44,567 nucleotides of DNA, from positions 146,673 to 191,239 of the forward strand of contig PLMK01000079.1 of NCBI GenBank assembly GCA_003142475.1, written 5' to 3'. The stretch is from Ignavibacteriota bacterium. GTDB taxonomy: Bacteria > Bacteroidota > Ignavibacteria > UBA10030. Positions 2,576 to 17,818 of this stretch are shown here, in pieces. Below the pieces are notes generated by a model. The model was not told where the DNA came from. It searched no databases and saw only the letters and a list, made by a program, of their open reading frames with translations. The stretch's first letter is position 1. Every line of letters begins with the position of its first letter. The position numbers and the translations under genes were made by a program.

Positions 2576-2614
2576 ATTTCAATCCACGCGTCCCGATGAA
2601 ATCGGGAGCGCGAC
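2576..2614 (-). repeat. degenerate leader-distal terminal CRISPR repeat with altered hairpin
   Basis: This unit keeps the outer parts of the repeat (TTTCAATCCACGCG on the left, GCGCGAC on the right). The central 10 bases are replaced by a 17-base palindrome, TCCCGAT-gaa-ATCGGGA (2591-2607), making it 39 bp instead of 32. The first base is A instead of G. As RNA it would form an 11-bp stem with one bulge, longer than the normal 7-bp stem. Its position at the end opposite the leader fits decay or remodelling of the last repeat. Confidence 0.9.
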
Positions 2615-5600
2615 ACATTGGTGGAACAAGCAATAGGATTGTTACCGTGTTTCAATCCACGCGCCCGCATGGGGCGCGACATACGCAGAGAGTAAATCAG
2701 GGTATGGTGATGCTGTTTCAATCCACGCGCCCGCATGGGGCGCGACCGCTACAACTCCATTCTTTGCATCGCTCAAACCATATTGTTTCAATCCACGCGC
2801 CCGCATGGGGCGCGACTTGCTACCAATGCTAATGCCGAAAACATCAAGGTGTTTCAATCCACGCGCCCGCATGGGGCGCGACACTGATATTGTCAACGCA
2901 AGTATTATGTATTTCAGTTTCAATCCACGCGCCCGCATGGGGCGCGACACCTTTCGAGGCTCCTGATTATATCAATGACAACGTTTCAATCCACGCGCCC
3001 GCATGGGGCGCGACGACCTGCTGGTTATGCCGCAAACCCCTCCTAATAGTTTCAATCCACGCGCCCGCATGGGGCGCGACCTAGAATTACAAGGTGGAAA
3101 TTTGTTGATTCAAAAGTTTCAATCCACGCGCCCGCATGGGGCGCGACATTGATTCAGTTTTTTTCATTGACATTCCAATACGTTTCAATCCACGCGCCCG
3201 CATGGGGCGCGACGAGTATATAGTATATAATCGCGCATTGACATCATCAGTTTCAATCCACGCGCCCGCATGGGGCGCGACACTGTTGACAGTACAGAAA
3301 TTGTGGGAATAAGTAGTTTCAATCCACGCGCCCGCATGGGGCGCGACTACACGTTTTCCAAATTCATTAGTAACAATAATATGTTTCAATCCACGCGCCC
3401 GCATGGGGCGCGACTCGTGGTGATATTAAGGTAAAGCAGTTGCCAAAAGTTTCAATCCACGCGCCCGCATGGGGCGCGACTATAAGCAATTACCGTTGTT
3501 GCAAGTTCTAAATGGTTTCAATCCACGCGCCCGCATGGGGCGCGACCGGCAAGTTTATCAATTTCCTCTATTCCTTGGAATGTTTCAATCCACGCGCCCG
3601 CATGGGGCGCGACTATTGCAAACAAAACATTTTTCTCCATCCCGATTAGTTTCAATCCACGCGCCCGCATGGGGCGCGACGTGATGAGAACCGGAAAGGG
3701 CAATTACAAGATTTCGTTTCAATCCACGCGCCCGCATGGGGCGCGACAATAACAAGGAGGGTATATGGATAATGTTTTAAAGGTTTCAATCCACGCGCCC
3801 GCATGGGGCGCGACTAAATGCAGGACGTATTATTTAGTCTGCAGCGGAGTTTCAATCCACGCGCCCGCATGGGGCGCGACCCCACAACTCACGAGAAATA
3901 ACCAACACACCAGCGTTTCAATCCACGCGCCCGCATGGGGCGCGACTCTAATCCGATCCATGATTCACAAGATGAGATAAAGTTTCAATCCACGCGCCCG
4001 CATGGGGCGCGACCAAAAGCAAAAATAATACTTTCAGATCACTTACAAGTTTCAATCCACGCGCCCGCATGGGGCGCGACATAAGCGGTGAGTGTTGTCT
4101 GCTTTTGATAAAATAGTTTCAATCCACGCGCCCGCATGGGGCGCGACCGCCGTTCCTTTTGAATTTTGCTTGATTGTATAAGTTTCAATCCACGCGCCCG
4201 CATGGGGCGCGACAATAGTATTATCTTGTAACTGCATAAGTCCGAAAGTTTCAATCCACGCGCCCGCATGGGGCGCGACTTCCCTGCTGACCGATTTCCA
4301 AACCATCAGCAAGGTTTCAATCCACGCGCCCGCATGGGGCGCGACAGTAGGAGATCGCCGATTGCCGATAAAGGAAATTAGTTTCAATCCACGCGCCCGC
4401 ATGGGGCGCGACGTTTGGTGGCGGGCAAAACCCAGCTGAAAGTCCGGTTTCAATCCACGCGCCCGCATGGGGCGCGACCACTGTAGTTGATTTGATAACA
4501 TTGGATGAATTGTTTCAATCCACGCGCCCGCATGGGGCGCGACTGTGCCAACAGACCTTAATATCACTGGAATATATAGTTTCAATCCACGCGCCCGCAT
4601 GGGGCGCGACTACCGGCGATGATAAATTTCCAGAATATAATTCCTGGTTTCAATCCACGCGCCCGCATGGGGCGCGACCGGCAAGTTTATCAATTTCCTC
4701 TATTCCTTGGAATGTTTCAATCCACGCGCCCGCATGGGGCGCGACCCGAGCGAGAAGAAATTTGCGCTTACCGGTGAGGATGTTTCAATCCACGCGCCCG
4801 CATGGGGCGCGACTCTTTCTCATTGATGTCCTTTACATCAGATGTCACGTTTCAATCCACGCGCCCGCATGGGGCGCGACGTTCCCCATGGTCCCGCATT
4901 CATTCCCATCATTAGTTTCAATCCACGCGCCCGCATGGGGCGCGACGGTTGCATTTGCCCCGCCTCTATTGGCGAGTGTTAGTTTCAATCCACGCGCCCG
5001 CATGGGGCGCGACAACATCAGGTGCGAGTATGTGTATTTCATAGACATGTTTCAATCCACGCGCCCGCATGGGGCGCGACCCAATACTCTGCTTGCTGGA
5101 TGTGCGGGAATAGGTTTCAATCCACGCGCCCGCATGGGGCGCGACGTTTGCACTGGCACTTATGCTGTTTACTATTTTTGGTTTCAATCCACGCGCCCGC
5201 ATGGGGCGCGACCCTAACACAGTCAAAGCATATATATCTGCAATTCGTTTCAATCCACGCGCCCGCATGGGGCGCGACTATATAAGACTTGGGTAGGTGA
5301 CAATGCAATTGGTTTCAATCCACGCGCCCGCATGGGGCGCGACTCAAAGAACTTTGTAGCATCGTCGCTTTAGCATTGTTTCAATCCACGCGCCCGCATG
5401 GGGCGCGACTACATTCGGACGGATTTAGGTAATAGATGGTACGTTTCAATCCACGCGCCCGCATGGGGCGCGACCACAATGTTATGCGAAATAATCTTCA
5501 CACTGACGTTTCAATCCACGCGCCCGCATGGGGCGCGACATTCCATAAAACACAGCTGTAGCACTGTCAGCACTGGTTTCAATCCACGCGCCCGCATGGG

Positions 5601-8600
5601 GCGCGACGTTTTCTCTTCCACTGCTGCAATCTCTTTACTCAATGTTTCAATCCACGCGCCCGCATGGGGCGCGACCGGCATCATTCGTTGTTACAGTTAT
5701 ATTTAAGTTTGTTTCAATCCACGCGCCCGCATGGGGCGCGACTTTAACTTTCTTAGACACTTTGGAGATTTGAAATGTTTCAATCCACGCGCCCGCATGG
5801 GGCGCGACAAGCAGTTCCCTGAAAGTTCAAATTGATCTTTCCGTTTCAATCCACGCGCCCGCATGGGGCGCGACCAAGAAACCTGTGACACTTGCCAATG
5901 TTAGGAAGTTTCAATCCACGCGCCCGCATGGGGCGCGACCTAATCCGATCCATGATTCACAAGATGAGATAAAGTTTCAATCCACGCGCCCGCATGGGGC
6001 GCGACTCGCAACCAATGAAAAGTAAAAGAGAAATAGTAAGTTTCAATCCACGCGCCCGCATGGGGCGCGACTTTACTACTCCAAAATCTATGTCGGTTGT
6101 TCTAACGTTTCAATCCACGCGCCCGCATGGGGCGCGACATCATTTACTGCGTTGCCTGTGAATATTCCAAGGTTTCAATCCACGCGCCCGCATGGGGCGC
6201 GACTTGTTGTAGTTCCACCATTTGGCATATTTAATACCGTTTCAATCCACGCGCCCGCATGGGGCGCGACTTATTCATCTCCTCCAAGCTTTATCCATAC
6301 TATTTGTTTCAATCCACGCGCCCGCATGGGGCGCGACCTTACAGATGGAGTTACCGCACTTCCGTCAGTGAAGTTTCAATCCACGCGCCCGCATGGGGCG
6401 CGACGATGTAACGATTGAAGTAATAAAAGGATAAAACCGTGTTTCAATCCACGCGCCCGCATGGGGCGCGACTCTCCAGTTGCCTTTAAATTGGCGCCAT
6501 ATCCATGTTTCAATCCACGCGCCCGCATGGGGCGCGACTCTTGACCTTCACCACTCGTTCCTGCACTGTCAAGTTTCAATCCACGCGCCCGCATGGGGCG
6601 CGACGAGCCAGCAATGGAACTGCCAACAAAACCATGATGTTTCAATCCACGCGCCCGCATGGGGCGCGACGAAACTTGCCAGAACTGTACTGCCTGTTAT
6701 TGCTGTTTCAATCCACGCGCCCGCATGGGGCGCGACCCACATGATTTCTTTAGAGTGGCGGGGTATTGATGTTTCAATCCACGCGCCCGCATGGGGCGCG
6801 ACAGTCTTTCGGGTGTGAATAAAGTAAAGATGTTTTTGTTTCAATCCACGCGCCCGCATGGGGCGCGACCAGCACATCAAAGATGTTCTTGACAGTGCAG
6901 GAACGTTTCAATCCACGCGCCCGCATGGGGCGCGACCAAGTGCCTGTCCCAAAACAGTCCGGGCAAATCCAGTTTCAATCCACGCGCCCGCATGGGGCGC
7001 GACTGTCAAGGGAATGATTCTCGTTTATCTGATGCACGTTTCAATCCACGCGCCCGCATGGGGCGCGACCAAATCCGCATTCCGTCCTTCGCGTTTTATC
7101 CATTGTTTCAATCCACGCGCCCGCATGGGGCGCGACGATTATTCTTTTCATGCTACACCTTTAGTTGTAATGTTTCAATCCACGCGCCCGCATGGGGCGC
7201 GACTATAGACGAGTGGTATTCCGAGGAGCGAAGTTGTGTTTCAATCCACGCGCCCGCATGGGGCGCGACATTCAATCCTTGATTCATAAATGCTGACCAC
7301 ACAGTTTCAATCCACGCGCCCGCATGGGGCGCGACGATATCTTCGTGGATTCTTTTCTCTCATCTCATTGTTTCAATCCACGCGCCCGCATGGGGCGCGA
7401 CCCACATGATTTCTTTAGAGTGGCGGGGTATTGATGTTTCAATCCACGCGCCCGCATGGGGCGCGACTCATGGAGGAACATGGTCACTTGATGATATCAG
7501 TGGTTTCAATCCACGCGCCCGCATGGGGCGCGACAGTTCCGATTGCATGATAAGTCCCTGTATCTGTTGTTTCAATCCACGCGCCCGCATGGGGCGCGAC
7601 CAAGTGCCTGTCCCAAAACAGTCCGGGCAAATCCAGTTTCAATCCACGCGCCCGCATGGGGCGCGACCTTGGGAATACCAGACTGTGTCCAGCCATAACA
7701 GGTTTCAATCCACGCGCCCGCATGGGGCGCGACTCCTACGCGCTTGTCCACATTGGTAGCTGGAACGCGTTTCAATCCACGCGCCCGCATGGGGCGCGAC
7801 TATTTCATCTTTACAATTTACCATACCCATCAAAAGTTTCAATCCACGCGCCCGCATGGGGCGCGACAGAATTGATTTTGAGGATCCAGAGTTGATGAAA
7901 TGTTTCAATCCACGCGCCCGCATGGGGCGCGACCATTCAGTACTTTTGTATAAGTGACAGAGTCTCTTTGTTTCAATCCACGCGCCCGCATGGGGCGCGA
8001 CTACCAGCATAAGGTGTCCAATATCCGCCTGGAGTGTTTCAATCCACGCGCCCGCATGGGGCGCGACTTGAAATCAAGCTTGATGTTCTTTATCCATTTC
8101 GGGTTTCAATCCACGCGCCCGCATGGGGCGCGACCATAACCGGCAAAGGCGTAGAACCGTAATTATAAGTTTCAATCCACGCGCCCGCATGGGGCGCGAC
8201 GTTAATCAATCGACACCGCATGGGACGGTAAATGTTTCAATCCACGCGCCCGCATGGGGCGCGACTTGATTTGAGGGGTGGATTTCATAGTATCGTAACT
8301 GTTTCAATCCACGCGCCCGCATGGGGCGCGACGCAACGTAACTGTCCCAAGTGTGAACGCCTGATATGTTTCAATCCACGCGCCCGCATGGGGCGCGACT
8401 ACAGCTGCCACTTGAGTCCAAGACGTATTACCAAGTTTCAATCCACGCGCCCGCATGGGGCGCGACTGGGTTCATATCCAAAAATGTATCTCCAAAAGTT
8501 GTTTCAATCCACGCGCCCGCATGGGGCGCGACTTTCCATCTGTTGAAATATTCGCTATTGTAAATAGTTTCAATCCACGCGCCCGCATGGGGCGCGACTT

Positions 8601-9393
8601 TGGAAGAAACGGTGCTCGGATATATAATCACACGTTTCAATCCACGCGCCCGCATGGGGCGCGACTCCAAACGTTGTCTCACTCGAATTACTTGACAGCG
8701 TTTCAATCCACGCGCCCGCATGGGGCGCGACAATTATAGTTGGCATTTCCCGCCTGAACACTTGTGGTTTCAATCCACGCGCCCGCATGGGGCGCGACAG
8801 TGAACAACACCTGGACATCACAATCCATCAAAGTTTCAATCCACGCGCCCGCATGGGGCGCGACCGTCAGCGCAGGATGGCGATACTGGACAATGGCATG
8901 TTTCAATCCACGCGCCCGCATGGGGCGCGACTATATTGACCATCTGCATAAGGGACGCCATCAACGTTTCAATCCACGCGCCCGCATGGGGCGCGACAAC
9001 ATTGTCAACCGTTGATCCGTTTACAACATCCGTTTCAATCCACGCGCCCGCATGGGGCGCGACGTTTCCATCGGCGTATTTATAAAACGCTTCAGCCGGT
9101 TTCAATCCACGCGCCCGCATGGGGCGCGACGCCATGCCATTTTAAATCTCCTTTAATTAAAATTGTTTCAATCCACGCGCCCGCATGGGGCGCGACCAGA
9201 AGAGAAGAAATCATTCATGCATGATGTAATGTTTCAATCCACGCGCCCGCATGGGGCGCGACAATAACAGTAGCGTTGCAGTCATTAAAAATAATCGTTT
9301 CAATCCACGCGCCCGCATGGGGCGCGACTATTCAACGCACAAATATGAGTCTGATTTCACAGTTTCAATCCACGCGCCCGCATGGGGCGCGAC
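2576..9393 (-). CRISPR. type I-C CRISPR array, 103 repeats and 102 spacers
   Basis: The repeat is 32 bp. On the plus strand it starts GTTTCAATCCACGCGCC and ends GCATGGGGCGCGAC. Counting by eye, repeat starts run from 2649 to 9362 with a period of 65-70 bp (mean about 66.5) and show no variant, plus one degenerate repeat at 2576-2614. Spacers are 33-38 nt, mostly 34-35. Transcription is inferred to be leftward: the cas operon and leader lie to the right, the minus-strand repeat ends with the I-C 5' handle A-T-T-G-A-A-A-C, and the degenerate repeat lies at the far end. The repeat RNA folds as a 7-bp stem (CGCGCCC/GGGCGCG) around a 5-nt loop, the substrate of Cas5c. Spacers are numbered here S1 (2615-2648) at the old end to S102 (9329-9361) next to the leader. 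Open frames inside the array are translation artefacts. Confidence 0.99.
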
Positions 9394-9554
9394 TGTTACT
9401 TCTTAAACAATAATAATATCAAGTAAATATACTATCCAAACGCCAAGGTTCACTTTTTCAAAGAACATTTGCTTGTGTGAAACGAAATAACCATTATTTC
9501 GTTTGTTTTCACACTGCTAACCTACCGGCATTTCTATGTACGCTTCGGTTAGCG
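9394..9554 (-). promoter_or_regulatory. CRISPR leader between cas2 and the array
   Basis: An AT-rich, non-coding stretch of 161 bases between the cas2 stop and the first intact repeat, where the promoter of the pre-crRNA and the spacer-integration signals are expected. It contains an imperfect hairpin at 9475-9514: the left arm GTGTGAAACGAAATAA pairs with the right arm TTATTTCG...TTTTCACAC around a CCA loop, with a 5-nt bulge on the right. A second inverted pair, GCTAACC (9516-9522) and GGTTAGC (9547-9553), lies next to cas2, and the smaller palindrome ACGCT-tcggtt-AGCGT overlaps it. No firm -35/-10 pair could be fixed by eye. Confidence 0.8.
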
Positions 9555-9845
9555 TTACACAATAATCGGTTCTTCTATATCGGAAATTGCATCTCCTCCA
9601 TGATGTTCTACGCGCCGATGCCAATTCGATCCTAAAAAATAGAATCTTAAACTATCTTCTTCTGCTTTATACATCGATAACAACTTATCCTTAAGACTCT
9701 CCCATTGTGCAGGATCAACATTGCACTCGAATACAGAGTTTTGTACACGCAGTCCATAATCAAGACATATCTCTGCAATCTTCCGCAAGCGTGTTACTCC
9801 AGCAGGAGTTTTAGTTGAAACGTCATAACTGACCAACACCATCAT
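9555..9845 (-). CDS. cas2: CRISPR-associated endonuclease Cas2 (type I-C)
   Basis: A 96-residue protein, the usual length for Cas2, the dimeric core that joins two Cas1 dimers in the spacer-integration complex. It opens with M-M-V-L-V-S-Y-D-V, where the conserved aspartate follows the first beta strand, and has the ferredoxin-like pattern with V-Q-N-S-V-F-E-C and the late F-Y-F-L-G-S segment. Two adjacent ATGs could be the start, which makes a one-residue difference. It is the last gene of the cas operon, 7 bases after cas1, and is followed by the leader. Confidence 0.97.
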   Translation of the reverse strand: MMVLVSYDVSTKTPAGVTRLRKIAEICLDYGLRVQNSVFECNVDPAQWESLKDKLLSMYKAEEDSLRFYFLGSNWHRRVEHHGGDAISDIEEPIIV

Positions 9846-9852
9846 AGCAATC

Positions 9853-10881
9853 TCACTTTACGTAGAAGGGTGGATATTCTGTTATGTCACCGCGAATGTA
9901 GCGTGCCAGCAATTGCGCTTGTATATGTGGCAACAATCCAATGGTCATCTTCTCATTTAAAAATGGGTGCGTAATCTCTTCTTGCTTGCGTTTCTGATAT
10001 GCTGATATGACGGTCTTACGCGCTTCATCAGACATCCGCACTTCTCCCGATTCGCGGATTTCAAAATCGCTCTTCGTTACCTGTTTCAAATTAATAAGGT
10101 TCAGCATGATCCGGTCGCCAAGATACGCGCGAAATTCTTCCATAATGTCTAACGCAAGACTCGGTCTTCCAGATCGCATTTGGTGAAGGAAGCCAACCTG
10201 CGGGTCAAGTCCGGTTGTCTCAAGCGCCGAGCGTACATCGTTTGCTAAGATGGCGTATAGAAACGATAGCAGCGCATTTGCCGGATCGAGCGGCGGACGC
10301 TTTGATCTCTGTGCAAACGTAAAGTCTTCTTGCTGCGATGTTATGAGGGACGACAAGACACTAAAATAAATATTAGCACATTCGCCTTCATATCCGCGTA
10401 ATCCATCAAGTGTGAAAGATTTTTCAATATCCGTCAATCGCTTTCCTAAAACCGTTGCAGCAGAATCAACTTTAGGCGGACAATCATCGGGATGATTCCT
10501 TTGATGCCGTAAAAGGAGACTTCGATAGTTTGCCACTTTCGCCGCAATGATCGGTCGTGCAATGGCAAGGGATTCTTGTTCGTTGTCGGCAATGGTATAT
10601 TGCGCTTTTCGTAAAAGTACATTTCCGTGCTGTGCCCCATAGACCCGGGCAAGAAATTTTCCGTTCTCTGAGAGATAGCTGATACCGACATTGTTCTCAG
10701 CACAAAACGCCATAAGGGCAGGGGAGAGGGCTTTGAATCCGAAGCAAACAATGTTCTCAATCGAGTGAACGGGTGCTTGAAAGACTTTTTCATTGTTCAC
10801 CTCCACAACAAACGTTTCCCGTTCTTTGCGCACATACGCATCGTCGGAGGTGATGTAGAGAGTATTCAAATGTTTCTTCAT
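9853..10881 (-). CDS. cas1: CRISPR-associated integrase Cas1 (type I-C)
   Basis: A 342-residue integrase that inserts new spacers at the leader end with Cas2. Metal-binding residues are visible: Glu165 in G-Y-E-G-E-C-A-N-I-Y-F, His233 in G-F-L-H-Q-M-R-S-G-R-P, and Asp245 in A-L-D-I-M-E-E-F. The N-terminal beta domain includes the S-I-E-N-I-V-C-F-G motif typical of the family. The length matches type I-C Cas1. It is separated from cas4 by a 62-bp gap that holds a double-hairpin repeat, while most other junctions in the operon are tight. No good Shine-Dalgarno precedes its ATG, so translation here may differ from that of the upstream genes. Confidence 0.98.
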   Translation of the reverse strand: MKKHLNTLYITSDDAYVRKERETFVVEVNNEKVFQAPVHSIENIVCFGFKALSPALMAFCAENNVGISYLSENGKFLARVYGAQHGNVLLRKAQYTIADNEQESLAIARPIIAAKVANYRSLLLRHQRNHPDDCPPKVDSAATVLGKRLTDIEKSFTLDGLRGYEGECANIYFSVLSSLITSQQEDFTFAQRSKRPPLDPANALLSFLYAILANDVRSALETTGLDPQVGFLHQMRSGRPSLALDIMEEFRAYLGDRIMLNLINLKQVTKSDFEIRESGEVRMSDEARKTVISAYQKRKQEEITHPFLNEKMTIGLLPHIQAQLLARYIRGDITEYPPFYVK

Positions 10882-10895
10882 GGTTTTATTATTTA

Positions 10896-10953
10896 GTCAT
10901 GCTGAATTTATTTCAGCATCTATTCTGAGACCCTGAATCAAGTTCAGGGTGAC
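10896..10953. repeat. double-hairpin intergenic repeat (REP/MITE-like) between cas4 and cas1
   Basis: Two 21-base hairpins stand side by side: ATGCTGAA-tttat-TTCAGCAT, and ACCCTGAA-tcaag-TTCAGGGT, each an 8-bp stem with a 5-nt loop. The element is bounded by GTCA (10896-10899) and TGAC (10950-10953), a short terminal inverted repeat. It resembles a dispersed palindromic family common in Bacteroidota and related genomes, in which hairpins with CTGAA/TTCAG cores are bounded by GTCA/TGAC. The cas4 stop codon (10944-10946) lies inside the second hairpin. Inference: it inserted at the 3' end of cas4. Confidence 0.75.
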
Positions 10954-11588
10954 AGGTCACTGTTGTACAATTCCTTAATATATTGCTTCAACTTCCTTTC
11001 ATTCATCGCCTTTGGCATGCACGCATCCTCTAAAGAACAATTCCGGCATTTCTCGGAGTATTTCGCCGGAGGCACTTTTTTTTGCGAGACAATCTCATGC
11101 ACGGCAGCGATGATTTCTTCGGTTTGCTTTCTTAGCTCGTCGTCAAGCTCAACTTGCACACGTCGGCGGATTTTACCATAGAAGAACGCTCCGCGTCTCA
11201 CCTGCGTGTTCATCATTTCTTCCAAGCATAATGCTTGCGCGCACAACTGCACCTTATCGCTCACATCTTCTTTGGGTTCTCCCGATTTAAACTCTACCGG
11301 CATCACATCCGGCGATCCATCAGCATTTGTTGATTTTCTAAACTCCACAACATCTGCACGACCGACAATACCAAGCCGGGTTGAGTGGATTCTCAGCGCG
11401 CGCACTGTTTTTAATGTGCCGCGTGTTTCGTACGTGTCGGTATCAACCTTTTCGTGCAGGATGTCGCCTCGAACGGTAAAGACATTCTCATGCCACACAT
11501 CCTCCACGTGTATCAACCCGCATTGCCGTGGACAAAACACGTAATGCTGTAATGCGCTAAGTTGTATGTAATCGTCTTCGGTGAACAT
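10944..11588 (-). CDS. cas4: CRISPR-associated exonuclease Cas4 (type I-C)
   Basis: A 214-residue RecB-like nuclease that trims prespacers and helps select those with a correct PAM. The four cysteines of the Fe-S cluster are visible: Cys19 in Y-V-F-C-P-R-Q-C-G, and Cys181, Cys184 and Cys190 in C-R-N-C-S-L-E-D-A-C. The nuclease motifs are His45, Asp79 in V-G-R-A-D-V-V-E, and Glu99-x-Lys101 in V-E-F-K-S-G. The open frame extends 20 codons upstream (to 11648, overlapping cas7), but the ATG at 11588 is preferred because GAGGAA lies about 7 bases before it and the protein then starts in the usual place. The last residues, D-L-S-P, are encoded by the double-hairpin repeat, so the native C-terminus may have been altered. 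Confidence 0.95.
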   Translation of the reverse strand: MFTEDDYIQLSALQHYVFCPRQCGLIHVEDVWHENVFTVRGDILHEKVDTDTYETRGTLKTVRALRIHSTRLGIVGRADVVEFRKSTNADGSPDVMPVEFKSGEPKEDVSDKVQLCAQALCLEEMMNTQVRRGAFFYGKIRRRVQVELDDELRKQTEEIIAAVHEIVSQKKVPPAKYSEKCRNCSLEDACMPKAMNERKLKQYIKELYNSDLSP

Positions 11589-11634
11589 TATATGTTCCTC
11601 GGGCGAGCGTTGATGTCCGCCCAAGAAAGAAATA

Positions 11635-12525
11635 TTACTCACCATCAATTACTTCTACACTCAAACCTGACAATTCTTTGTCAATCTCTGATTTATTAGG
11701 GATGTAATAATCATTAATTGATTGTGGTTCGTCTTTTAATGCTTTTACTTTATCCCTTATTGATCGATGGACTTTTGCAGAAGAATATTTCACTTCTTTT
11801 TGTTCCCACCAATAAAGTTTATGTACTTCCATCGTTCCTGCAGGTCGTGCGGATGATTCATCGTTCACAAATAATGTTTTCAATGCTTTTTGGATTGCTT
11901 TTGCATCTTCGTTGCTAAACCCTGTGCCACGAGGTTGTGCTGCAAGTTGTGGATTAATACTTCCGTAAAAAACATAGACGCCATGGTCAACACGGTGTTT
12001 CATGCCCATAGTATCAGATCCTTTCTTATTGCCATCGCCTTCACCGCTTACACTTTTAGTGATTTGAATACTTGCAGTTCGATCACTAATTGGATTTATA
12101 GAAAATGCCGACTGGATAGAAACAGGCCCTCGGATACCAACAGAAACGCCTTCACCCTTGTTTTCACCTCCATATGCAAAAACTTGTCCGAACGCTCGCA
12201 CATCAAACCATTTTTTACATACAGCATTCCGAAATTTCTTTTCATCTTTCCAGTCATCTTTTTTAATTTCTCCTTCGGCTCTTTTACGAAGACTCGGATA
12301 GTCGTCCAATTTATTATCATCCGATTGGACAAATATCTCTTGTTCAAGGTTCATAAGGCGATTTCTAATTTTTCGTTTAATGCATACGTCGGATAGTTCT
12401 CCATACCCGTCGTAAGTTATACGAGGACGATTACCGTTTAATGGATCGCCATTGGGATTTGCTCTGTTCACCCCAAGAATAACTGCGAAATCGATTTTGT
12501 TTTTCAAACTCTCTGTTGTTCCCAT
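11635..12525 (-). CDS. cas7c: type I-C Cascade backbone protein Cas7c (Csd2)
   Basis: A 296-residue subunit, several copies of which coat the crRNA spacer in the Cascade complex. It carries Csd2 signatures: V-N-R-A-N-P-N-G-D-P-L-N-G-N-R-P-R near residues 19-35, S-V-G-I-R-G-P-V-S-I-Q-S-A-F near 128-141, and K-H-R-V-D-H-G-V-Y-V-F-Y-G. Its ATG is preceded by AAGGAGT at a good distance, so the start is secure. A 107-bp gap separates it from cas8c, larger than at the other upstream junctions; that gap is one open frame in phase with cas7c but has no usable start. Confidence 0.97.
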   Translation of the reverse strand: MGTTESLKNKIDFAVILGVNRANPNGDPLNGNRPRITYDGYGELSDVCIKRKIRNRLMNLEQEIFVQSDDNKLDDYPSLRKRAEGEIKKDDWKDEKKFRNAVCKKWFDVRAFGQVFAYGGENKGEGVSVGIRGPVSIQSAFSINPISDRTASIQITKSVSGEGDGNKKGSDTMGMKHRVDHGVYVFYGSINPQLAAQPRGTGFSNEDAKAIQKALKTLFVNDESSARPAGTMEVHKLYWWEQKEVKYSSAKVHRSIRDKVKALKDEPQSINDYYIPNKSEIDKELSGLSVEVIDGE

Positions 12526-12632
12526 GGTAAATACTCCTTTATGATAAATGAAATAAAATTCTTTTGGTGGAACACGTATTCCTGCGAGTCGTTTTCCATC
12601 AAGGATATTTAAAGATGAATGTCCTATCCAGA
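12526..12632 (-). other. 107-bp cas8c-cas7c junction, open in frame with cas7c
   Basis: Read on the minus strand in the cas7c frame, this gap has no stop codon and would encode W-I-G-H-S-S-L-N-I-L-D-G-K-R-L directly upstream of cas7c. It has no ATG, GTG or TTG in that frame. The W-I-G-H-S-S word followed by D-G-K-R resembles the opening of metallo-beta-lactamase-fold hydrolases, but it is too short to call. In another frame an ATG opens a 31-codon ORF that runs into cas7c. Only the cas7c ribosome site (AAGGAGT) is well supported here. Confidence 0.35.
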
Positions 12633-13016
12633 TTATTCTTCAACTTGCATTTCTTCCGGTTCTTCGTTTTTACCTTTCCATAATTCGGCGCGTTGGCAAT
12701 GGAAGCCCAATAAAAATTCTCCACCTAATGGTTTATCATTCTTAAAATCATCTGGGGCAAATTTACACATAACGTTATCTATTAGTCCGGTGTAGTAACC
12801 TGCACCACCAAGTCGTGCTTTGTACGGTGATAGTGAAAGCTCGATTTGTCTCCATGTTTTAAAAGGATGTTCAGCAAACAACTGCATATAACGTGCAGCA
12901 TTTGTATCACGTTTTTCCTTTGCTTTATAAAGTGCGTGTCCTTCAAGCCGGTCTGCAATTGCGAGAAGTCTTCCATAAAGGTAGTCTCGCGTATTCCTGT
13001 TTTCATCAAGAGCCAT
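12633..13016 (-). CDS. cas11c: Cas11c small subunit, internal translation product of cas8c
   Basis: In type I-C systems the small Cascade subunit is known to be translated from an internal start in cas8c. Here Met521 of Cas8c (codon 13014-13016) opens a 127-residue, mostly helical protein beginning M-A-L-D-E-N-R-N-T-R-D-Y-L-Y-G-R-L-L. It is preceded by a perfect Shine-Dalgarno, AAAGGAGG, 8 bases upstream. The length is close to that of known Cas11c, and the fragment ends at the cas8c stop. Two copies would be expected to form the inner belly of Cascade and contact the displaced DNA strand. The internal start is a prediction from sequence, but a strong one. Confidence 0.85.
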   Translation of the reverse strand: MALDENRNTRDYLYGRLLAIADRLEGHALYKAKEKRDTNAARYMQLFAEHPFKTWRQIELSLSPYKARLGGAGYYTGLIDNVMCKFAPDDFKNDKPLGGEFLLGFHCQRAELWKGKNEEPEEMQVEE

Positions 13017-14576
13017 ATTGTAATCCTCCTTTGAATATTTTTTATAAAGTGAACATGCTATACTCAGTGTTTTATTCCATTCTCTTTCGTGTTTATCTTT
13101 CGAATCTTTTTGAGCAATTCTATTACATGCGCGTCTTATAACGGATTCAACAATATCGCGTGGTATTTGCTGACCATCAATGATGCAGGGGAGAAGACGA
13201 GCCACGGTTGCTTTTGTAAGTTTGTCGTCAACTCTTCTTCCATACGCTGCTTCGGCTATATCATCTGGTGCAGGTGCCCCAACAAAAGTGAAGTGTTGTT
13301 TCGTCTCCTTATCATAGCCGTAATTGTGTATCCATGCACAATGTTCATGCCAGTCATCAATTCTCTTAAGAAAATCAGAACCTTTTAGTTCTTTATAAAA
13401 AGTCATGGACATTCGTCCGGGTGTTGCTGCATCTAAACCCATAACGACAACATCAGCTGAATTGCCTAGTTCTTTGCGATAACCGGCTATTTTCTTTTTA
13501 AGCTTTATTGCCAAGTCTTGTGCAGTCGATACAACCTTCGACTCATTACTTGGTAATTCATTAAAACCAAGAATTGCCAGTGGGTCATCTGTTGGCTGGA
13601 TAATTTTTGTCCCAGAAGTTGCCCATGCTACGATGGCTTGACCATCTTTGCCTTTGTATCCCTGACGATCAATTAACCAACGGAGAGCTAGATGTGCTTT
13701 TTGTGACACTTCAAGACTTATACCAGCGGCTTGATCTGCATCCCAAAACCGCCCAAGAAAAGTAAATCCACAACTATCATCTACTTTTTCTTTACCTTTG
13801 CTATCAATTGATTTGCCTGAAGAGATTATTTTTGCCCCATCAGCTTCATTTCTAATTTTTTTGGGGTGTTGGTTGCTAACGATTTGATCCTTTCCGGTTG
13901 TGTAACAAAGACCTTTCTTTTCTCTCTTTATACTGAAATAATATTGAATCCAAATTTTCCATAGGGATTCATCGTCCCATGCTCTTATTTCCTTCTCATT
14001 TGGTTTATCAACAATCCATCGTATGAAGGCATCAGCCTGCCATTCCTGGTTTTGTAGGATCGAAAATATTGTAGGTGTTTCATTCCTATTTCCATCCCAC
14101 TTCTTGAGTAAAGTTCCTTGCTTTGCATATAAGACATTATTCTTAATTAAATCTTCAATGATCTTTCCTTTTCTTACATATTTTAGTACCGCAATAGCTT
14201 TGGGATGAGAATATGTAGAATTACACCATGCTTCTAAATTATTTCGATATGATTCATGATATATTTTCTTGTCTCCTCCATAATTTTCATAGTCTTGTGC
14301 AACATATTGTAGCTTGTCACAAAGCGGATGAGGTGCCCCACCACTAGTTCTTCCAGCGGATTTTTCGGTGCAAGGTATTATAGTCGTTCTTACTTCGTCT
14401 TTGCCCAAAGAGCGTGCTTTTATAAACTTACCATGTTCATCTATAGTGATTTCAATATGTGCCTTTTGAGTCGTATGGCAAATCGGAAGGAGAGGCATTT
14501 TATTCTCATCATGACTTACTCCAACCATATTTTCACAATTATTGTACGTCTCGTACAGCTTTTGCATCCAGCTCAT
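12633..14576 (-). CDS. cas8c: type I-C Cascade large subunit Cas8c (Csd1)
   Basis: A 647-residue large subunit of type I-C Cascade, which recognises the PAM and helps position Cas3. It shows the Csd1 pattern: N-terminal L-P-I-C-H-T-T-Q-K-A-H-I, W-A-T-S-G-T-K in the middle, and the conserved G-L-D-A-A-T-P-G-R-M-S segment followed by W-H-E-H-C-A-W. The start overlaps the cas5c stop by four bases (ATGA) and is preceded by GGAGGTGA, so the two are translationally coupled. The length is at the upper end for Cas8c. The C-terminal 127 residues can be made separately from an internal start as Cas11c (see that entry). Confidence 0.97.
   Translation of the reverse strand: MSWMQKLYETYNNCENMVGVSHDENKMPLLPICHTTQKAHIEITIDEHGKFIKARSLGKDEVRTTIIPCTEKSAGRTSGGAPHPLCDKLQYVAQDYENYGGDKKIYHESYRNNLEAWCNSTYSHPKAIAVLKYVRKGKIIEDLIKNNVLYAKQGTLLKKWDGNRNETPTIFSILQNQEWQADAFIRWIVDKPNEKEIRAWDDESLWKIWIQYYFSIKREKKGLCYTTGKDQIVSNQHPKKIRNEADGAKIISSGKSIDSKGKEKVDDSCGFTFLGRFWDADQAAGISLEVSQKAHLALRWLIDRQGYKGKDGQAIVAWATSGTKIIQPTDDPLAILGFNELPSNESKVVSTAQDLAIKLKKKIAGYRKELGNSADVVVMGLDAATPGRMSMTFYKELKGSDFLKRIDDWHEHCAWIHNYGYDKETKQHFTFVGAPAPDDIAEAAYGRRVDDKLTKATVARLLPCIIDGQQIPRDIVESVIRRACNRIAQKDSKDKHEREWNKTLSIACSLYKKYSKEDYNMALDENRNTRDYLYGRLLAIADRLEGHALYKAKEKRDTNAARYMQLFAEHPFKTWRQIELSLSPYKARLGGAGYYTGLIDNVMCKFAPDDFKNDKPLGGEFLLGFHCQRAELWKGKNEEPEEMQVEE
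13025..13032 (-). promoter_or_regulatory. internal ribosome binding site for Cas11c
   Basis: The minus strand reads AAAGGAGG here, inside the cas8c coding region, with 8 bases between it and the internal ATG at 13016. It is as strong as the operon's own gene-start sites before cas5c and cas8c, which argues that it is selected rather than accidental. Confidence 0.85.
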
Positions 14577-15304
14577 TGTGTCACCTCCGCTTCTTCATAT
14601 CCTTCCAACAAATCTTCTTCCGCCAATCCGATTGTTTCAATTTTCTGTGCTTTCATTGATCTGACCAATTTTCGGATGCTGCAATCTTTTGGATGTGGAA
14701 ATTCAATGACACCTTGTTTCATTTTAGCCCACCAAAATCGGGCGATAAATTTTCCATCTTCGCCTTCGTCTGGATAATCAAAACCATGAAACATTAAACC
14801 AAATGCAAGCTCTGGGTGATCGTCGTATTCTCCTGTATCCTCGCCGAATTTACATGGTTCAACGTATGCCTGACATTCTCGTGTGCCGAGAAAAATGTCC
14901 CGCCTGCCTCCACGTTCGATCATCCGTTTTGCCACATAATAATGTTTGTTCTCGTTTTGATCCTGCTTTAAATCTTCTCGCTTTTCATTCCATTCAAAAT
15001 GTGCCTGAACTTGGTATTCAACATCCGCAAGGTATGTATAAATGGAAAGAGAGTTACCGCCGCTGCCGCTGTAAATAACCGGCTTTGCGCTTTGTGTCTG
15101 TGTTTTTATCTGTTTCATTATCCTGACTTTATCAATAATCCAGATAATTGTCGGTTTCCAATACACGGAACTAATCACGCCTTTCAAAGCCTCGTATGTC
15201 GGCACTTGATACGAACATTTTTCCCCACCAATTTTCGTTAGGGGGTCAGTGAAGAGGGCGTACTTGCCGTGTACCTTGAATTCCACACTGTTCTTGTATT
15301 TCAT
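14573..15304 (-). CDS. cas5c: type I-C pre-crRNA endoribonuclease Cas5c
   Basis: A 243-residue protein that in type I-C replaces Cas6: it cuts pre-crRNA at the base of the repeat hairpin and stays bound to the 5' handle in Cascade. Candidate catalytic residues match those described for Bacillus halodurans Cas5d: Tyr48 in S-V-Y-W-K-P and Lys120-His121 in N-K-H-Y-Y-V-A-K-R. The N-terminal fold starts V-E-F-K-V-H-G-K-Y-A-L-F-T-D-P, usual for the family. AAGGAGGAGAC lies just before the ATG. It starts 9 bases after cas3 and overlaps cas8c by four bases. Confidence 0.96.
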   Translation of the reverse strand: MKYKNSVEFKVHGKYALFTDPLTKIGGEKCSYQVPTYEALKGVISSVYWKPTIIWIIDKVRIMKQIKTQTQSAKPVIYSGSGGNSLSIYTYLADVEYQVQAHFEWNEKREDLKQDQNENKHYYVAKRMIERGGRRDIFLGTRECQAYVEPCKFGEDTGEYDDHPELAFGLMFHGFDYPDEGEDGKFIARFWWAKMKQGVIEFPHPKDCSIRKLVRSMKAQKIETIGLAEEDLLEGYEEAEVTQ

Positions 15305-15313
15305 GTCTCCTCC

Positions 15314-17818
15314 TTAAAAATTTAGACTTTTCATTTCTGTCACAATTTCTTTACTCCAGCCAAATTCATTGCTGTAATATTGATAATTCATATAGTAAAT
15401 ATCGGCTTCGTCTTGTACGGGGCGTATTGCCCCATTCTTTTCCATCTCCTCGAATTCATAAGGGTAGAGATTGACAGAGAACCTTTGCGCCGCTTTTAAA
15501 AGCTTGTACTGCTTTTCAAGCATAACGGTACCACAAAGATCATTGACGATCTGATTGCCTATTTTTCCATAAGGAACAACGACACCACGCGTTGGTGTAT
15601 CAATTGCATGAAATGCTTTCGCTGCACTTTGAAAGGATTGTCTCAATGAAAGAGGAAAGTTTATATGTTTTATGTCTTCATACCGTCTCAAAGAAATGGT
15701 GTTCGTTGATAGGAGATTAAACAGATCATCATCTCTTTCTATTATAGATTTGCTGTTAACGGGATAGCACATTTCTTTGTGCCTGTTATAGAAATAATAT
15801 GTGTAGAATTGTTTCATTGCCTTCAATCCAATTCTATCGTTATCAAATGTCTTGGGTGTGTTCTTGTATTCTCGAAGAACACGCTCTGCATTATCCGCGC
15901 CAGTCTTAATATCTTTAAGTTTGTCCAAGCTATCATTACAGGGATTTATGATGTAAACTTTTCCTGTTTTGCGTCTTCCGTTTCTATTACATCTTCCTGC
16001 TGCTTGTGTTATTGAATCGAGACCTGCCAGATAACGAATAACCGTTCCGAAATCTATATCGACACCGGCTTCTATCAATTGTGTGCTAACGCATACTACC
16101 GGTAGTTTCTTTTCGATTCTATCCTTAATAAGATTGAGGACTTCAAGACGATGCGCGGGACACATGTTGGTGCTGAGATGATATATATCAGGAGTGCTTT
16201 TCTTCTGAAGCGTCACGTAAAGTGACCGAGCAGAATCTTTTTTGTTTACAATGATCAACACACTACCCGTATCATTCAATTCCTTTTTAATCAAATCCAC
16301 TGTTTCATTCTCTGTCCATCCGCCTACCTTTTTCCTTTTGTCATAGACTTTAACTCGCTGTAATTTTTTAAATAGCTTATGTTCATCCTGTATAATCCTT
16401 TGCCCAGAAGATATGTCTAAGAATCTATGTGCACTATCGTCGTCAATTTTTTTCTCCAGCCAGCTTGCTTTGTCAAGCAATGGCTGTGTTGCCGTACAAA
16501 GAATGACTGATGCTCCGCAATTATTGACAAGAAATCGAAGGGAAACGTTGAACATGTGAACACATCTGACGGGGATTGTCTGGACTTCGTCAAAGATAAT
16601 CACAGAATTGGCAAGTTGGTGCATCCTGCGTGCACTTCTAGTTCCGCTGCCGAACATTGTCTCGAGAAATTGTACCTGAGTTGTAAAGACAATCGGTGCA
16701 TCCCAATTTTCTGATAAAAGATTCTGTCTCTTTGTTTCTTCTTCTGGTGTCAGGTTGGAATGATGTTCAAGAACAACTCTATCTAAATATTTACCATTGC
16801 TGTCTTTATCTTCTAAAATCTTTCGTACTTCATCTGCATTTTGATCAATAATAGAAGTGAAGGGAATAACATAGAATATTCTATCCAGCTTATGATGCTT
16901 TGCATGGTTTAAAGCAAACCGCAAACTTGCCATCGTTTTGCCGCCGCCAGTAGGAACGGTTAATTGGTATATTCCTTTTGGCTTTGTTGAAAAATTAAAG
17001 CATTGTTCTGATACTTCATTTCGCAGATCGTCGACTTCATTTTTATCCGGCTTGTTTTCAAACTCTTTTATCTTCGCATTCAATCTTTCGATTAGCACAT
17101 CCCAGGAGCAATACTTTCCATAATTACGGATTTCTGCGTTTTGAGGAAATTCAAAATCGGCAGTATTAAGTCTGTCAGCATCTATAAGACAACTGAAAAG
17201 AAAACGTGCAAGCAATCCGTATTTAAACAATACAGTATCTTGTTTGTCGCCGTCCTCTTTTAGTGATTTTATCTTTTCGATAATTTGTTTAATGACGTTA
17301 TCGCTCGAAAGCATTTTTGTAATCTTTTGTATCTCCATTTCCTGGAAATATGATAGTGCTTCATCGATGTGAGTCTTTTCTGATTCCTTGTTTATTCTTC
17401 GTGTAAAATTATCTTCGCCGGAAGGTAAAAGGCAATCGATGATGCCGGAATGGTGTGAAGCAATACAAAGTGCAAGTAATTGCGCCACATTGATTCCTGC
17501 CGCGCCTTGTTCGGAAAGAATCCTAAAAATAAATTGTGCCCCTGCGCTGGAATGATCTATTTTTCCTTTTTGTGTTTTTGCATCAACCCAATCATCGGCA
17601 TCTGGATTAATGCGTCCTGTTGCAGATTGGATGTATTTATCAAATTCAATGCTTGCTTTCCCAAGGTCATGAAGCAAACCGATAATTCTCCCCGCATCTT
17701 TCAATCCGATCTTTCCGGCGAATTGTCCACAATAAATTGCGGTTCTTAAAAGATGGCTTTGTAAAGATTGTGCTTCTCCATCTTTTTCTCGTCGGTGTGC
17801 AATAAACTCTTTCTTCAT
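15314..17818 (-). CDS. cas3: CRISPR-associated nuclease-helicase Cas3 (type I-C)
   Basis: An 834-residue fusion of an HD nuclease and a superfamily 2 helicase, which degrades DNA once Cascade has bound its target. HD-domain residues visible are His22, His50-Asp51 in L-L-H-D-L-G-K, His89 in D-H-S-S-A-G, and His122-His123 in A-S-H-H-S-G. Helicase motifs are Walker A (P-T-G-G-G-K-T, about 287-293), the DEAD-like box I-I-F-D-E-V-Q near 409-415, C-T-A-T-Q-P, and motif VI Q-A-A-G-R-C-N-R-N-G-R near 605-615. All catalytic motifs look intact. It is the first gene of the cas operon, so the operon promoter should lie at 17819-18300; none could be fixed by eye. Confidence 0.98.
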   Translation of the reverse strand: MKKEFIAHRREKDGEAQSLQSHLLRTAIYCGQFAGKIGLKDAGRIIGLLHDLGKASIEFDKYIQSATGRINPDADDWVDAKTQKGKIDHSSAGAQFIFRILSEQGAAGINVAQLLALCIASHHSGIIDCLLPSGEDNFTRRINKESEKTHIDEALSYFQEMEIQKITKMLSSDNVIKQIIEKIKSLKEDGDKQDTVLFKYGLLARFLFSCLIDADRLNTADFEFPQNAEIRNYGKYCSWDVLIERLNAKIKEFENKPDKNEVDDLRNEVSEQCFNFSTKPKGIYQLTVPTGGGKTMASLRFALNHAKHHKLDRIFYVIPFTSIIDQNADEVRKILEDKDSNGKYLDRVVLEHHSNLTPEEETKRQNLLSENWDAPIVFTTQVQFLETMFGSGTRSARRMHQLANSVIIFDEVQTIPVRCVHMFNVSLRFLVNNCGASVILCTATQPLLDKASWLEKKIDDDSAHRFLDISSGQRIIQDEHKLFKKLQRVKVYDKRKKVGGWTENETVDLIKKELNDTGSVLIIVNKKDSARSLYVTLQKKSTPDIYHLSTNMCPAHRLEVLNLIKDRIEKKLPVVCVSTQLIEAGVDIDFGTVIRYLAGLDSITQAAGRCNRNGRRKTGKVYIINPCNDSLDKLKDIKTGADNAERVLREYKNTPKTFDNDRIGLKAMKQFYTYYFYNRHKEMCYPVNSKSIIERDDDLFNLLSTNTISLRRYEDIKHINFPLSLRQSFQSAAKAFHAIDTPTRGVVVPYGKIGNQIVNDLCGTVMLEKQYKLLKAAQRFSVNLYPYEFEEMEKNGAIRPVQDEADIYYMNYQYYSNEFGWSKEIVTEMKSLNF

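Follow-up and report, generated by a model that had tools for sequence, protein, structure and literature searches.

A type I-C CRISPR array of an Ignavibacteria-related bacterium with two overlapping opposite-strand spacers flanked by TTC and CTC

Organization of the CRISPR-Cas locus

The window, i.e. the whole stretch of 44,567 nucleotides analysed here, contains a long CRISPR array together with a cas operon coded on the minus strand (Table 1). Pfam matches were found for all seven genes of the operon, with Csd1/Cas8c and Cas5d among them, and the 32-nt repeat has a GC-rich stem and the end ATTGAAAC, both typical of type I-C, indicating a complete system of this type. The nearest relatives of its Cas1 belong to MAGs of Ignavibacteriae/Ignavibacteriales (93% and 88%) and the host genome is Ignavibacteria-related. 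Within the whole genome the repeat was found at a single locus, this array, and an identical repeat is present in a relative of the same family (G010). The intact cas genes and the long array of identical repeats suggest, as far as can be judged from sequence, that interference and adaptation are active.

The repeat reads GTCGCGCCCCATGCGGGCGCGTGGATTGAAAC on the minus strand, where the cas genes also lie, and there it has the 3' end GTGGATTGAAAC and is predicted to fold into a 7-bp stem, so the crRNAs are minus-strand. Since the leader would lie between the array and cas2, spacers further to the right are expected to be younger. A type I-C cas1 82% identical to the present one was found in a contig labelled Candidatus Hadarchaeum, an archaeon (L158, DYFS01000023.1), which has a 129-spacer array with four partly overlapping spacer pairs; this points to a mis-binned contig or a recent transfer.

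Table 1 Features of the type I-C locus, in window positions
Feature	Position	Strand	Remarks
Degenerate terminal repeat	2577-2614	-	Marks the old (trailer) end; extra spacer at 2615-2648; from the printed sequence
CRISPR array	2649-9393	-	102 perfect 32-bp repeats with 101 spacers (33-38 nt) between them
Spacer present twice	3947-3981	-	35 nt; again at 5940-5973 (34 nt), same PAM-side end, far end one base shorter
Spacer S60 (probably the older)	6539-6572	-	34 nt; crRNA TTGACAGTGCAGGAACGAGTGGTGAAGGTCAAGA
CTC within S60	6554-6556	+	Putative PAM of the S65 protospacer
PAM-proximal 16 nt of S60	6557-6572	-	GTTCCTGCACTGTCAA; common to S65 in reverse complement
Spacer S65 (probably the younger)	6870-6904	-	35 nt; five units leader-ward of S60; crRNA GTTCCTGCACTGTCAAGAACATCTTTGATGTGCTG
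TTC within S65	6886-6888	+	Putative PAM of the S60 protospacer
PAM-proximal 16 nt of S65	6889-6904	-	TTGACAGTGCAGGAAC; common to S60 in reverse complement
Putative leader region	9394-9554	-	Young end, between array and cas2; placed from the order of the cas genes and the degenerate repeat at the opposite end
cas operon	9555-17818	-	Type I-C, cas3-cas5-cas8c-cas7-cas4-cas1-cas2; Pfam
cas2	9555-9845	-	Pfam
cas1	9853-10881	-	Pfam
cas4	10944-11648	-	Pfam
cas7	11635-12525	-	Pfam
cas8c/csd1	12633-14576	-	Pfam
cas5	14573-15304	-	Pfam
cas3	15314-17818	-	Pfam

Two spacers overlapping on opposite strands

The first-pass annotation of this DNA had described spacers S60 and S65 as ending in 16 bases that are exact reverse complements of each other, with a TTC and a CTC next to the overlap. 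The segments GTTCCTGCACTGTCAA and TTGACAGTGCAGGAAC are indeed exact reverse complements over 16 nt and both triplets were found where they had been placed. In both spacers the overlap reaches exactly to the right-hand, PAM-proximal end, a condition of any true tiling, and the merged site has 53 bp (CAGCACATCAAAGATGTTCTTGACAGTGCAGGAACGAGTGGTGAAGGTCAAGA). The names S60 and S65 follow a count that starts at the spacer behind the degenerate terminal repeat; they become 59 and 64 if numbering begins at the first perfect repeat.

In type I systems the PAM is located at the 5' flank of the protospacer. The strand assignment of the annotation was right, as with the repeat and the cas genes on the minus strand both triplets become 5' flanks. 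TTC and CTC fit a type I-C PAM (of the 5' TTC/YYC type). The support for this reading comes from the spacer overlap and not from targets mapped for this array, and a single site with two triplets is by itself a thin sample.

PAM in other arrays

To see whether a PAM can be read from an array alone, we have compared 87 arrays, mostly type I-C, with a total of 2,334 spacers; 36 were collected within the order and phylum, the other 51 through relatives of the Cas1. Two of the former, G125 and G268, have a different repeat and longer spacers: their genomes (L130 and L131, respectively) have a Csd1 match, the repeat of the arrays is ATCCGCCC...GAGGATTGAAAT, and the spacers, 40-42 nt as cut, have GTCGC at their end, which suggests a probable shift of the repeat boundary. 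Flanks were taken from partial overlaps within arrays outside the window. Exact overlaps had to be at least 14 nt long, and a single mismatch was the maximum accepted in longer ones; overlaps of 12-13 nt in the order and phylum arrays were discarded as possible chance matches.

Nine further 5' flanks were obtained, namely TTC (four), TTT (three), CTC and CAT (one each). Those of the order and phylum arrays were TTT, TTC, TTT and CTC, the last one from G010, and those of the Cas1-relative arrays TTC, TTC, CAT, TTT and TTC. Eight of the nine conform to YTY, against a background of 6.9% in the spacers, and the only exception is the CAT of L217. Spacers 65 and 101 of L158 reproduce the geometry of S60/S65, with an overlap of 14 nt and flanks TTT and TTC. 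In addition, G208, which has the identical repeat, provided mapped protospacers in microviruses: TTC precedes that of one spacer and TTT the closest match of another, while more diverged microviruses matching the second spacer showed CTT, TTT and, in one case, GCG. The idea that the PAM can be read from the array alone is thus borne out by other type I-C arrays and by the protospacers of G208. As to the motif itself, TTC and CTC both fit type I-C, although in giving only these two the annotation understated the tolerance, type I-C flanks being YTY (TTC > TTT > CTC).

These results supply a PAM for the type I-C system of an uncultured, Ignavibacteria-related bacterium; none of its invaders occurs in the databases searched. 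The overlap approach worked over 87 mostly type I-C arrays, indicating that both the PAM and the precision of trimming can be read where no target is known.

Origin of the S60/S65 pair

We consider it very likely that S60 and S65 are type I-C spacers that were acquired on separate occasions, one from each strand of a single 53-bp stretch of an invader, or of a near-identical allele. The gene set and the flanks point to capture by Cas4-Cas1-Cas2, which would trim every prespacer precisely at the PAM. Two facing PAMs 16 bp apart (5'-TTC-N16-GAG-3') would then yield two spacers whose common part is precisely the 16-bp interval separating these PAMs, with each of S60 and S65 carrying the PAM of the other. 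According to the position of the leader, S60 would have been captured first and S65 five units later. S65 keeps the TTC and the first 16 nt of S60 unchanged, so it should not come from a mutant that had escaped S60 through PAM or seed in the interval. This covers the PAM and the first 16 nt of S60, the distal 18 nt being invisible in S65. The target from which the younger spacer came would thus have been intact in both the PAM and the 16-nt seed region of the older one.

With such a PAM and seed region S60 could have cut that molecule, and this cutting might have led directly to the capture of S65 (by interference-linked or primed adaptation), a process that would favour overlapping capture on the opposite strand. 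The short distance of five units between both spacers and the strongly primed adaptation of the Legionella type I-C system (PMC5071653) go in the same direction. However, among exact overlaps of at least 14 nt five were on the same strand, two were opposite 5'-5' (S60/S65 included) and four opposite 3'-3', near the ratio of 2:1:1 that an unbiased process would give, and we regard this origin as unlikely. That the younger spacer was a by-product of cutting by the older one at an intact target appears slightly less likely still; if true, overlapping opposite-strand pairs would be a natural record of successful targeting and not of escape. A special mechanism for convergent PAMs was also considered and rejected: the facing-PAM geometry shows no excess in these counts, so no such mechanism is needed.

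The second alternative is that S60 and S65 derive from different sites or viruses sharing a conserved LDSAGT coding motif, flanked by PAMs in each case, so that the 53-mer never existed as one molecule. A source was looked for by blastn with all 97 unique spacers, none of which matched phages or plasmids. The search of the genus and of 98 genomes of the order retrieved the array itself and no invader source; a single weak match of 29 nt to an AT-rich spacer was taken as chance. The merged site, the target that the annotation had proposed to look for, likewise led to no source in IMG/VR or GTDB. In IMG/VR the shared 16-mer gave 47 matches, none of them to the full merged site (the best agreed at 33 of 53 positions), and the codon-degenerate version of the site gave none; its 22-bp core was absent from GTDB genomes. 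The reversed 16-mer used as control had 8 matches, so viral contigs contain the real one about six times as often, and 42 of the 47 are in one frame, xDSAGT. The shared 16-mer is therefore a coding word that recurs in viruses, so that two homologous sites become more likely, and the absence of the merged site from IMG/VR and GTDB also suits them. Against this, both outward flanks carry PAMs, although a loose homologue would not have to retain them, and the DSAGT frame is open through the whole merged 53-mer, which supports a single molecule weakly.

Real spacers also argue against two sites, and they served as a second control, since simulations are blind to coding words. Only one of 463,015 spacer pairs between arrays had at least 16 nt in common, and none was end-flush at such length; the one pair, a 17-nt overlap between G222 and G434, was thus not taken as tiling. 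Within arrays, 25 of 30,506 pairs shared at least 16 nt. Altogether, we find separate sites improbable, more so than an interference-linked capture, and a single site is the best reading. The claim of one invader stretch sampled twice stands as to an overlap beyond chance, while its common origin is what we infer, two homologous sites being the competing source.

Finally, that S60 and S65 are unrelated and match by chance is hardly credible: the array does contain a 13-nt opposite-strand match between spacers 12 and 29 (counted from the first perfect repeat) that is perhaps a chance one, but a 16-nt match is expected about 1e-3 times even before end-flushness and two PAM-type flanks are demanded. 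This value was extrapolated from 300 simulations in which the spacer set was generated by a first-order Markov model; opposite-strand matches reaching 13 nt or longer numbered 0.063 per array, and each added base lowered the count about 4- to 5-fold. The class [CT]TC, to which both flanks belong, makes up 2.7% of the triplets within spacers.

Spacer ends and repeated captures

The spacer listed twice in Table 1, with copies 30 units apart, differs by one base at the far end, which points to an independent second capture. In re-captured spacers of this and other arrays the PAM-side end is fixed and the far end ragged, as predicted by precise Cas4 trimming (PMC6519985) and a loose ruler. Another spacer is present at 3547-3581 and 4679-4713, 17 units apart. 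Two further identical pairs, 6737-6770/7402-7435 and 6937-6971/7601-7635, are each exactly ten units apart, and two intervening spacers differ between the blocks 6737-6971 and 7402-7635. These are either coincidental re-captures at the same offset or a duplication partly overwritten. On the crRNA strand the spacer at 6937-6971 reads WICPDCFGTGT, with the zinc-binding motif CxxCxGxG as in DnaJ; exact and degenerate searches with this zinc-finger-like spacer retrieved nothing from IMG/VR.

Comparison with known systems

TTC/CTC is the usual type I-C signal. Both the phenomenon and the PAM were already known, and the present pair is a further instance that implies no new mechanism. A catalogue of PAMs by repeat type (PMC8482600) gives TTC as canonical for I-C, together with TTT, TTN, CTN and CTT; it was built by mapping spacers to targets, whereas here overlaps inside arrays were used. 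In the type I-C system of Bacillus halodurans (PMC6519985), Cas4-Cas1-Cas2 trims prespacers and the Cas4 cut is precise at the PAM, GAA (TTC). Such a cut predicts fixed PAM-side ends, matching the present array, although that evidence is biochemistry in that organism and the system described here is known from its sequence.

Overlapping spacer pairs have already been published for Legionella pneumophila type I-C and the element LME-1 (PMC5071653), where, as here, spacers of different age target overlapping sites and the repeat is near-identical. There the targeted element is known and the older spacer mismatched LME-1 in PAM or seed, indicating escape, whereas the source of the S60/S65 pair was not found in the collections searched and S65 preserves the older spacer's PAM and its first 16 nt. 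The closest precedent for the approach is Sulfolobus (Erdmann & Garrett 2012, PMC3468723), in which contigs were built without an invader genome, out of overlapping spacers of either strand, and the PAMs were read off these contigs, with homogeneous PAM ends and ragged far ends. The present array shares with it the reading of a PAM from overlapping spacers and the fixed PAM ends with ragged far ends. The Sulfolobus work concerned type I loci of archaea, whose PAM is CCN, and adaptation in the laboratory, while S60/S65 is one pair that arose naturally, in the type I-C array of a bacterium.
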